Assembly: GCF_016900045.1 (NCBI RefSeq)
Contig: NZ_JACSNP010000010.1
Coordinates: 1 to 55,962 of the forward strand
Length of the DNA stretch: 55,962 nucleotides
Direction: 5' to 3'
Source: Fusobacterium mortiferum
GTDB taxonomy: Bacteria; Fusobacteriota; Fusobacteriia; Fusobacteriales; Fusobacteriaceae
Made by a program: the position numbers and the translations under genes. Positions within the stretch are counted from its first letter, which is position 1. The number at the start of each line of letters is the position of its first letter. The notes below the pieces were generated by a model. That model had not been told where the DNA came from, searched no databases, and saw only the letters and a program-made list of their open reading frames with translations. This document shows, piece by piece, positions 1 to 40,521 of this stretch.

Positions 1-120
1 GGTTCTATAAAGAAAGATTTAAAACTAAAAGATAGAGTTTATAGTTGTTCACATTGTGGAACAGTAATAGATAGAGATTATAACGCTTCTCTAAATTTAT
101 CTATGTATAAATTAGCATAA
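1..120 (+). mobile_element. tnpB: IS200/IS605-family TnpB (OrfB), C-terminal fragment
   Basis: Frame 1 is open from the window edge to a TAA at 118-120 and encodes the last 39 residues of a TnpB-type RNA-guided nuclease/transposase accessory protein. It shows the second CxxC pair of the zinc finger (CSHC, near residues 16-19), then DRDYNAS, which matches the conserved DRDxNA motif carrying the third RuvC catalytic aspartate. The rest of the gene lies outside the window, so whether TnpB or TnpA is intact cannot be judged. The sequence that follows looks like the element's right end. Confidence 0.85.
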
Positions 121-275
121 TTTCACAAACAAGAAAATGCTAATGTGTAGGACGCGTTGTATCCGAATTTAAGCCTTTGGAGAGTTATATCAAACGAAAG
201 TAGCTTAGGCAAAATCGGACTTGTAGAAGAAGGAAATAAACAAATTTCTATATTTTTATAGATTTTTGGCAACGG
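121..275 (+). mobile_element. IS200/IS605 right end and probable omega-RNA region
   Basis: The non-coding stretch between tnpB and cutC is what the right end of an IS605-type element usually looks like. A perfect hairpin, TCTATA-TTTT-TATAGA, lies at 247-262 and resembles the subterminal hairpins bound by TnpA. In this family the 3' end of tnpB and the following right end are transcribed as the guide (omega/reRNA) of TnpB, so this stretch is the likely scaffold. The exact cleavage point near 265-278 is not determined. Confidence 0.6.
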
Positions 276-37650: not shown

Positions 37651-38742
37651 TTATAGGAAATTTTCATTAAAATATACCATTAGAGCTTCATACTCTTTCT
37701 TCGTATCAGCAACAGTATATATATCTACCCTAAATCCTCCCATAGATGTTTTCATTTCAAGAGCTAATGTACTCTCAAAATCATCACTATCTAAGATAAA
37801 GAATTTAGATACCTTTAACTTTCTATTTGGATTATGGAATACAACTTTTAATTTATTTACGTATGGTGAAGCCTTTAATAAGCTTAACATATCATCTAAC
37901 TCTTGTGGTCTTTCTTTAATTGTTGAAGATGGAATCTCCTTTTCATTTACTGGAACATTAGTTATTCTTCTTGGTAGATATTTACAGTTTTTAACTGTTT
38001 TTAGATAGAAATCTCCCATTGCTGATAACTCAACATAAGTTTTATCTCCATCTTTTATCTCTTCAAGGAAATAAGATAATTCTAATTTTTCATTTAAGTA
38101 TTTTTCAATTTTCTCTTTTTCTAATCTTTCATTATTTGAGATAGTATTGAAGAAATCTTTGTTTTCTAAATAGTAGTTATAATCTATTTTTATAGGAAGA
38201 GGTGGAATCTCAGTAACATCTTCAAACTCTCTAAACATAAAATATGATTTTATTCCTAAAATTTGTGCCATAAGACTTACCATAAATATCTCTGCTGTAT
38301 ATCCTCCAACAGTACATACAGCTATATTATATTTATTGCCTACTTGCTCTACTATATCTCCAACTTCTTCAACAAGATTTCTTAATCCCTTCGTTCTAAA
38401 TTCATCAGGATTTCTCTTATTCATTTTTTCAACTGCTTTTCTAGTAACTCTTCTTACTATCCCTTTACTTAGGAAAAACTCTTCTAGTACTTCTCCTGCT
38501 AATCTTCCATTTACAGTGTCATGAGTTATCATAAATAGGTGTCTTCCTGAGAAGATATCCTTTTCTCTTAGATTTTCTACAGCTATAATTTCAGACCCAA
38601 ATCTTTTATCTCTTAGGTCTACCATACTCTCTTTTTCATAATAGCTTAAAATATCATCCTTAGTGATATTTGTTTTCTCTGGGTTATGTTCAATATAATT
38701 CTCTATTAAACTTGTTCCAACTGTAATTATTAAATTATCCAA
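37651..38742 (-). CDS. CARF-domain protein (APE2256/Csx1-like), possible CARF-wHTH-RelE effector
   Basis: A 363-residue protein. The N-terminal domain (1-190) has the CARF hallmarks of the APE2256/TIGR02619 family: LIITVGTSLIEN (4-15), an acidic/basic middle with MITHDTVNGRLAGE, and AVCTVGGYTAEIFM...LGIKSYFMF (141-170), ending EIPPLPI (178-184). CARF domains bind cyclic oligoadenylates made by type III CRISPR systems. Residues about 195-250 (ending YVELSAMGDFYLK) look like a winged helix. The last 100 residues may be RelE-like (helix ELDDMLSLLKASPYVNKLK, then GGFRVDIYTV at 335-344), as in Cami1, but this is not certain. It starts with TTG after AGGGGG, in its own transcription unit; no cas gene is nearby. 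Confidence 0.72.
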   Translation of the reverse strand: MDNLIITVGTSLIENYIEHNPEKTNITKDDILSYYEKESMVDLRDKRFGSEIIAVENLREKDIFSGRHLFMITHDTVNGRLAGEVLEEFFLSKGIVRRVTRKAVEKMNKRNPDEFRTKGLRNLVEEVGDIVEQVGNKYNIAVCTVGGYTAEIFMVSLMAQILGIKSYFMFREFEDVTEIPPLPIKIDYNYYLENKDFFNTISNNERLEKEKIEKYLNEKLELSYFLEEIKDGDKTYVELSAMGDFYLKTVKNCKYLPRRITNVPVNEKEIPSSTIKERPQELDDMLSLLKASPYVNKLKVVFHNPNRKLKVSKFFILDSDDFESTLALEMKTSMGGFRVDIYTVADTKKEYEALMVYFNENFL

Positions 38743-38835: not shown

Positions 38836-38869
38836 ATAAAAAAGAAGTGACATTTTTTATCACCTCTTT
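38836..38869 (-). terminator. Terminator after the mgtC-like gene
   Basis: On the minus strand AAAGAGGTGA pairs with TCACTTCTTT (one G-T), followed by TTT-rich sequence. Confidence 0.75.
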
Positions 38870-38877
38870 ATTTTTTA

Positions 38878-39588
38878 CTATGGAATTTGAATTTGAGAGA
38901 TATGGCTGTATGTTGAAAGCTCTGACATAACATCTAAAATATCTGTTTGTTTTCCCATAATTAAAGTATACTCTATCATATTTCCATCTGTATTTTTTTC
39001 TACATTCTTTATTTTAATATTATTTTCATTAAAAAAATTATAATTTTTCATTAATGCTTCAGAAAAATCTATATCTTGATTAAATCGAACTAATAATTTT
39101 GCTATATGTTTATTCTCTATCCAATAACGTTCTAATTTCTTCAAAGTTACAAGAACAATTATTACAGCTATTCCAGATGGAACAGCTAGATAATAAAATC
39201 CCCATCCTATGCTAAGCCCTAAACACCCAGTAGCCCATATTGAAGCTGCTGTAGTAAGACCACCTATAACTCCTTTATCTCTCATTATTGTTCCAGCACC
39301 TAAAAATCCTATTCCACTTACTACCTGAGCTCCTATTCGCCCTAAATCTGTTTTCATAACTTGAGTAGCTTCTGGAAAAGCTATTGCATAATTATGAAGA
39401 TTTATTCTCAATTGATCTTGAATCATAGAAACTATTGTAGCTCCAAGACAAACCAGTATATGAGTTCTAAAACCAGCAGGTCTATTATGTTGCCCTCTTT
39501 CATATCCTATCATCCCACCTATAACAATTGCCATAAAAATTCTAAGGATAATCTCATATATTGTAAGTGAATTTGTAAAACTACTCAT
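38878..39588 (-). CDS. MgtC/SapB family membrane protein
   Basis: A 236-residue protein with four or five N-terminal helices and a C-terminal ACT-like soluble domain (about 145-236). GGMIGYERGQHNRPAGFRTHILVCLGATIVSMI and RIGAQVVSGIGFLGAGTIMRDKGVIGGLTTAASIWATGCLGL are the family signature. MgtC proteins act in magnesium limitation and membrane-potential control in some bacteria. It overlaps the glycerophosphodiesterase gene by eight bases. Confidence 0.92.
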   Translation of the reverse strand: MSSFTNSLTIYEIILRIFMAIVIGGMIGYERGQHNRPAGFRTHILVCLGATIVSMIQDQLRINLHNYAIAFPEATQVMKTDLGRIGAQVVSGIGFLGAGTIMRDKGVIGGLTTAASIWATGCLGLSIGWGFYYLAVPSGIAVIIVLVTLKKLERYWIENKHIAKLLVRFNQDIDFSEALMKNYNFFNENNIKIKNVEKNTDGNMIEYTLIMGKQTDILDVMSELSTYSHISQIQIP

Positions 39589-40321
39589 TAGTCTCTCCTT
39601 GATACTCTTTCTTTATTTCTTGAGCTAACTCGGGATAGTTAGTAATTATCACATCAATATTATTTGAATAAAGATATCTCATATCCTCTTCTAAATTTAC
39701 TGTCCAAGTATTAATCTCTAGATTATACTTCTTTAATTCTTTAATAACATCTGGTACAAGATTATTAAATCTTGGATGATAGCATTGTACTCCATGAGAG
39801 TGAGTATATTTTCCTGCATCTATTATCCAATCTTCTGATAAAAATCCATACTTCAATTGTGGAGCTATCTTTTTCATTCTCATTACAGAAAAATGATTAA
39901 AACTAGATATTATCACTTTTTCCTCTAAGTTATACTCCTTTATTAGCTCCCATACCTTTTCCTCTATTCCTAAATACTCATTTATTCCTGTTTTTAACTC
40001 TACATTTGTAACTATATCATAATCTTTTACCAGTTGAAAATACTCTCTCAATGTAGGGATTTTATTAAATCCTAAATCTTTAAATTTGAACGAAGCATCA
40101 AATCTTTCTAACTCCTCGTAGGTATAATCTACAACAAAACCTTTTCCTGTTGTCGTTCTATCTATAGTTTCATCATGAATAATTACTACCTCTCCATCCT
40201 TTGTTAGTTGAACATCTAGTTCAATCCCATCTACTCCACACTCTAGGGCTTTTTTAAAAGCTATCATTGTATTTTCTGGATATTTTCCACTGTATCCTCT
40301 ATGGGCAAAAATTTTACACAT
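39581..40321 (-). CDS. glpQ: Glycerophosphodiester phosphodiesterase
   Basis: A 246-residue cytoplasmic GDPD (no signal peptide, UgpQ-like). FAHRGYSGKYPENTMIAF (His and Arg of the active site near 6-8), DGIELDVQLTKDGEVVIIHDE (acidic metal ligands and second His) and IPTLREYF are diagnostic. It hydrolyses glycerophosphodiesters to glycerol-3-phosphate and an alcohol. AGGAGG precedes the ATG. Together with the mgtC-like gene it follows a promoter and structured RNA at 40354-40473. Confidence 0.92.
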   Translation of the reverse strand: MCKIFAHRGYSGKYPENTMIAFKKALECGVDGIELDVQLTKDGEVVIIHDETIDRTTTGKGFVVDYTYEELERFDASFKFKDLGFNKIPTLREYFQLVKDYDIVTNVELKTGINEYLGIEEKVWELIKEYNLEEKVIISSFNHFSVMRMKKIAPQLKYGFLSEDWIIDAGKYTHSHGVQCYHPRFNNLVPDVIKELKKYNLEINTWTVNLEEDMRYLYSNNIDVIITNYPELAQEIKKEYQGETNE

Positions 40322-40353
40322 AATATATCTTCCTCCTATTTTCTAGTCCTTAT

Positions 40354-40437
40354 AAAAAAAAGCTAGAATATACTAAAGACATCATTCCAAATTACTTGGA
40401 ATTTCAGCCTCGCCATATCTCCTAGCCTAATTTTTTC
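40354..40437 (-). ncRNA. Structured leader or small RNA upstream of glpQ-mgtC
   Basis: Minus strand: an outer stem GCTAGGA (40420-40426) pairs with TTCTAGC (40362-40368, one G-T), enclosing a hairpin ATTCCAA-GTAAT-TTGGAAT (40384-40402), and is followed by eight T residues (40354-40361). A promoter sits directly upstream. It could be a riboswitch-like attenuator for glpQ-mgtC or a roughly 80-nt small RNA. I could not match it to a known riboswitch class. Confidence 0.55.
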
Positions 40438-40443
40438 AAATAT

Positions 40444-40473
40444 ACTATACTATTTTTTATGTTAACTTGTCAA
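40444..40473 (-). promoter_or_regulatory. Promoter for the structured RNA and glpQ-mgtC
   Basis: Minus strand: consensus TTGACA (40468-40473), 18-base spacer, TATAGT (40444-40449). It lies between the groEL 3' end and the structured RNA. Confidence 0.72.
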
Positions 40474-40521
40474 TTATTTTTTCTATTTTAACACTATTTT
40501 CACGTTATTTTTACACTTTTA

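Follow-up and report, generated by a model that had tools for sequence, protein, structure and literature searches.

The glpQ-mgtC locus

The window analyzed here, a 55,962-nt stretch of the Fusobacterium mortiferum source genome (G000; NZ_JACSNP010000010.1), carries on its minus strand glpQ, encoding a glycerophosphodiester phosphodiesterase (GDPD, PF03009; 39581..40321), followed by an mgtC-family gene (PF02308; 38878..39588) and by an intrinsic terminator, detected by terminator scan, that closes the operon (38841..38869). Ahead of glpQ lies a predicted leader RNA of approximately 84 nt (40354..40437, minus strand), whose 3' end falls in a run of eight T residues (40354..40361) and which is followed by a ribosome site and then glpQ. 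The leader is preceded by a sigma-70-type promoter (40444..40473, minus strand) with a −35 element TTGACA (40473-40468), an 18-bp spacer, and a −10 element TATAGT (40449-40444). This promoter matches the consensus at 11 of 12 positions and was the joint top scorer in a 10-kb promoter scan; its −35 and most of its −10 region are conserved in alignment with G020 (same species), G019 (related species), G018, and G021. Transcription of the leader, with a start at about 40437, is a prediction. The earlier note had read the same promoter, an RNA of some 80 bases, eight T residues, and then glpQ and an mgtC-like gene, and this layout held.

Between the groEL stop codon and the leader promoter, no hairpin folds in G000 or G020 and none appeared in the terminator scan, so the leader terminator may also end groESL transcripts, which would be a ground for its retention. 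On the other side of the operon, a Cas_APE2256-domain gene and an ABC transporter lie 3' of mgtC in G000 and G020, with other genes in that position in G019; in the window, the Cas_APE2256-domain protein (PF09651) is encoded at 37651-38742 (minus strand) and adjoins the ABC transporter operon. A separate observation concerns the window edge (1-235, plus strand), where a RAGATH-18 RNA (RF03064, 72.4 bits, 174-235) directly follows the C-terminus of a TnpB/Cas12f-like protein (PF07282, 1-120), which is truncated so that only this C-terminus is inside. The arrangement suggests that RAGATH-18, for which we know of no role, may be a guide RNA or the end of an IS605-type element.

Leader structure and conservation

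Folding of the 88-nt leader stretch gave a minimum free energy (MFE) of −26.9 kcal/mol compared with −14.5 ± 2.7 for shuffled sequences (z −4.58), and none of 200 shuffles reached this value. The predicted structure is a terminator (40360..40428, minus strand; MFE −26.2) composed of a 9-bp outer stem (40428-40420 with 40368-40360) and an inner 7-bp hairpin. The seven outer pairs proposed in the earlier note (40420-40426 with 40362-40368) were right, since they are the inner seven of this 9-bp stem, and the second hairpin enclosed by it was also recovered. The conserved part of the leader is a short hairpin with a GGAGA-N2-4-GNGA loop that competes with the terminator. In the window, this putative GlpP-type antiterminator (40406..40427, minus strand) has arms at 40427-40424 (GGCU) and 40409-40406 (GGCU) and a loop of A+GGAGAUAUGGCGA. 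Its 5' arm is common to the terminator, which makes the two structures mutually exclusive.

A DNA search of the family identified leaders with 96% identity in G020 and 76% identity in G019; that of G018 was obtained from sequences upstream of glpQ orthologs and that of G021 from a later scan, and both could be aligned. The comparative search proposed in the earlier note thus yielded orthologous leaders 5' of glpQ in four relatives, all retaining GGAGAYRTGGN and covarying terminator stems. A further match in the source genome (88% over 33 nt) covered only the A/T-rich −10 region and not the leader, and was discarded. Comparison of G000 and G020 showed that the leader and glpQ differ by 1–9% (40318-40485; glpQ, 39581-40321), whereas groEL, mgtC, and the other neighbors differ by 0.3–0.5%. 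Because the raised divergence takes in glpQ too, this tract may reflect recombination instead of relaxed selection.

Among the five aligned sequences, with stem arms placed by hand, both partners had changed in 9 of the 16 terminator pairs. Of the terminator cells, 97.5% could pair; the figure was 77.5% for shuffles and did not exceed 61% for slid controls. The sequence of the inner hairpin was wholly replaced between species with pairing preserved. The earlier note had named missing covariation as one sign against its reading; compensatory changes were found in both terminator stems, and together with the pairing frequency they indicate that the terminator is most likely a selected structure. 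It is intact in this species, with energies of −26.2 in G000 and −22.0 in G020.

These data also bear on a discrete, trans-acting small RNA gene of approximately 84 nt with its own terminator, as the earlier note had offered. The promoter, the terminator, and the compact size agree with it, but the leader is always found 5' of glpQ, approximately 30–40 nt from the start codon in G000, G020, G019, and G018, and the replacement of the inner hairpin sequence is unlike the behavior of an antisense seed. We consider such a gene highly improbable; any discrete small RNA from this site would be a by-product of termination in the leader. Ribosome-mediated attenuation through a leader peptide, starting at the ATG inside GGAGATATGG and reading MARLKFQVIWNDVFSIF, has a negligible probability: the frame is open in G000 and G020, but in G019 it ends early (MERLNYL*), for which it was rejected, and the distance from GGAG to ATG is too small for a ribosome site.

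A shared element in glp leaders

The conserved piece of the leader resembles GGAGAAAAGUGAAAGCUAA, located 5' of glpQ in G024-G027, and GGAGAAAUGAGAAGCUU, located between glpP and glpF in G023-G028. Scanning for the loop-hairpin followed by a T-run placed the element 5' of glpF in G040-G042 and of glpD in G018 and G021, and also beside glpP in Vagococcus and Clostridia. GlpP is a glycerol-3-phosphate-responsive antiterminator (PF04309) with solved homologues (3KTS and 1VKF). Because the loop-hairpin is common to GlpP-controlled leaders, a protein target, GlpP, is indicated. The conserved part of the leader is the loop-hairpin of glycerol-3-phosphate operon leaders, and the phosphate or magnesium sensing hinted at in the earlier note is not supported.

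To generalize, we applied a rule requiring a GAGA-N-G(N)GA loop, a stem of at least four pairs, and an overlapping terminator to 79 glpP loci from Fusobacteria, Clostridia, and Vagococcus. On the glpP strand, 44 elements were found in 35 of the 79 loci, compared with 7 elements in 5 loci on the opposite strand. In the 56-kb window, the leader was the single match, where shuffles averaged 0.27; in the glp regions of six relatives, the rule identified only glpQ, glpF, and glpD leaders. The looser genus-wide pattern GGAGA-N-GNGA-N-T6 recovered the known glp leaders with a total near that of the reversed control, and its other matches, judged by eye, were coding-like or unstructured. A short covariance model of the antiterminator (R1, with N-padded columns) singled out neither the leader site nor its own training sites, and MAFFT alignment of the raw hairpins put the motif out of register. 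Covariation in the antiterminator stem is partly circular, as some of the glpF and glpD elements had been selected by a stem-pairing filter.

In a Fusobacteriaceae MAG (L108, position 6631), a GlpP-type element lies after glpP and before a gene resembling a TRAP-transporter binding protein, and L079 (G051, position 2145) has a comparable element after glpP; GlpP may control other uptake systems in these two loci. In several Butyrivibrio and Lachnospiraceae loci (among L126-L155, at approximately 5850), a GAGA-N-GAGA element with a terminator sits approximately 130–170 nt 5' of the matched part of glpP, a position that suggests glpP autoregulation.

Loss of GlpP and apparent decay of the antiterminator

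In G018, the gene order is groEL-[leader]-glpQ-AGCS-mgtC-glpP-glpF-glpK-[leader]-glpD, and the operon behind the glpQ leader encodes GlpP itself (PF04309, 212 bits). Unlike in G018, glpP-glpF-glpK-glpD do not follow mgtC in G000. Of 12 genus members, nine have PF04309; the three without it are G000, G020, and G019 (best E-value, 0.16), each of which is at least 99% complete (G019 in five contigs). At lax E-values, G000 showed weak partial matches only, confined to a small C-terminal part of the profile. No glpD homologue was detected in any of the three genomes, no MIP/glpF in G000, and no FGGY kinase in G000 or G020, with two weak matches in G019 lying away from the glp locus. With GlpP and the glycerol genes absent, the leader is, judged by gene content, orphaned in this genome. 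MgtC seems merely to be carried along in the operon, because G018 has a transporter gene between glpQ and mgtC, and glpP after mgtC. The earlier note had drawn its functional hint from both downstream genes: the link to glpQ was borne out by the GlpP-type leaders, and that to MgtC was not.

The antiterminator hairpin has an energy of −1.2 kcal/mol in G000, with two G·U pairs, compared with −2.2 to −3.8 in relatives, and the second GAGA motif is altered to GCGA in G000 and GUGA in G020. In the leaders of G018, G019, and G024, as in those of glpD and glpF, the 5' portion forms the loop-hairpin when folded alone (about −3 to −5 kcal/mol), and the complete RNA adopts the terminator fold (−23 to −27). 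For G019, G018, and G024, folding predicts the antiterminator in the nascent RNA; for G000 it does not, and in this species the hairpin looks decayed. G019 lacks GlpP, yet its antiterminator is intact, which could mean a recent loss of GlpP or continued use of the element.

Molecular phylogenetic analysis of the groEL, glpQ, and mgtC proteins did not group G000 and G019 as sisters, placing G018 with G019 (support 68). This topology suggests that glpP was probably lost independently in the two lines, or recently, in which case the conservation of the motif between G000 and G019 may be older than the losses.

Alternative regulators of the leader

That conservation speaks for a metabolite-binding riboswitch, sensing Mg2+, a phosphate ester, or glycerol-3-phosphate without any protein: 16 of 17 motif bases are identical between G000 and G019, compared with 48% of glpQ fourfold sites (about half for glpQ and mgtC), and the leader is kept in three genomes that lack GlpP. 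However, the motif sits mostly within the terminator stem, which accounts for part of its conservation; the conserved part is a mere short loop-hairpin; and in other genomes the element tracks glpP and the glp genes. No Rfam family (release 15) matched the leader at the gathering score, and at E ≤ 10 there were only chance plus-strand matches to eukaryotic families. The earlier note had compared riboswitch classes by eye without a match, and the covariance-model scan gave the same outcome. Of its proposal of an attenuating riboswitch, the attenuation leader with its own promoter stands, supported by terminator covariation, and the riboswitch, which we regard as very unlikely, does not.

The GlpP-type element might instead still serve a different RNA-binding antiterminator, unrelated to GlpP, or a GlpP that has diverged beyond recognition by PF04309. 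The retention of leader and promoter and the intact antiterminator of G019 are compatible with this, but the relaxed PF04309 search returned nothing better than the partial matches above, and the weakened hairpin with its altered second GAGA in G000 and G020 argues against use of the element. We judge this reading unlikely. More broadly, it is doubtful that genomes without GlpP still use the leader as a working regulated switch, whether a different protein has taken it over or the RNA senses glycerol-3-phosphate or a phosphodiester product directly.

Comparison with known systems

GlpP founded a separate antiterminator family and, to our knowledge, has been studied in only a few Firmicutes. 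In leaders of the BglG/LicT/SacY type (RAT), a protein-stabilized hairpin competes with an overlapping terminator, and the RNA motif differs from the GlpP-type element. Our leader resembles them in opposing an antiterminator hairpin to an overlapping terminator, whereas the protein family is another and there is no PTS gene context here. It is likewise similar to transcription-terminating riboswitches in having mutually exclusive structures that include a terminator, but it has no aptamer-sized conserved core.

The closest parallel is B. subtilis, whose glpD, glpFK, and glpTQ leaders are described as GlpP-controlled in two later articles (PMC9604022 and PMC3997798, citing Holmberg and Rutberg 1992; Glatz 1996, 1998). 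Compared by layout, our leader has the same composition: a promoter, a GlpP-site-like hairpin, and an intrinsic terminator stand in the 5' UTR of glpQ, a glycerol-3-phosphate gene that is a GlpP target in B. subtilis too. In our leader, the terminator (9-bp stem and U8) covaries among relatives, and the hairpin overlaps it, is common to glpF and glpD leaders near glpP, and is weakened. Unlike the B. subtilis system, this genome encodes no GlpP, and we therefore class the leader as an orphaned derivative, not as a working member. The glpQ leaders of this clade also differ from the glpF and glpD leaders in that their terminator takes up the 5' arm of the antiterminator and the GGA of its loop, whereas in the latter it takes the 3' arm.

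Proposed mechanism and significance

Leader homology, the motif common to glp leaders, terminator covariation, and the absence of gene families were computed here; for GlpP binding, antitermination, and present-day behavior, we infer the following model, in which the GlpP step is borrowed from B. subtilis. In the ancestral form, and in sister species, the nascent RNA would make the small hairpin with the GGAGA-N-GNGA loop. GlpP, active with glycerol-3-phosphate, would bind and hold this hairpin, and polymerase would read into glpQ because the 5' arm and loop G residues of the hairpin are the 5' strand of the terminator. Without GlpP, the terminator would form and transcription would end after approximately 84 nt. 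In this species, with glpP, glpF, glpK, and glpD lost, attenuation would operate without relief and glpQ-mgtC would be held low. As the antiterminator half appears to be decaying and the terminator is kept, we consider it likely that the leader is a relic GlpP attenuation leader that now acts as a GlpP-independent, probably constitutive partial terminator for glpQ-mgtC.

The leader is ordinary in kind but offers a neat example of an RNA switch that has been orphaned. Rfam recognized none of the glp leaders that we scanned, and the hairpin with a GGAGA-N-GNGA loop opposed to a terminator provides a candidate RNA target for GlpP in Fusobacteria and Clostridia, with a small glpQ/glpF/glpD regulon defined by leader comparison. 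The leaders form a natural series, from an intact switch with GlpP, through an intact switch without GlpP, to a decayed switch without GlpP, that bears on how an RNA switch fares once its protein has gone.
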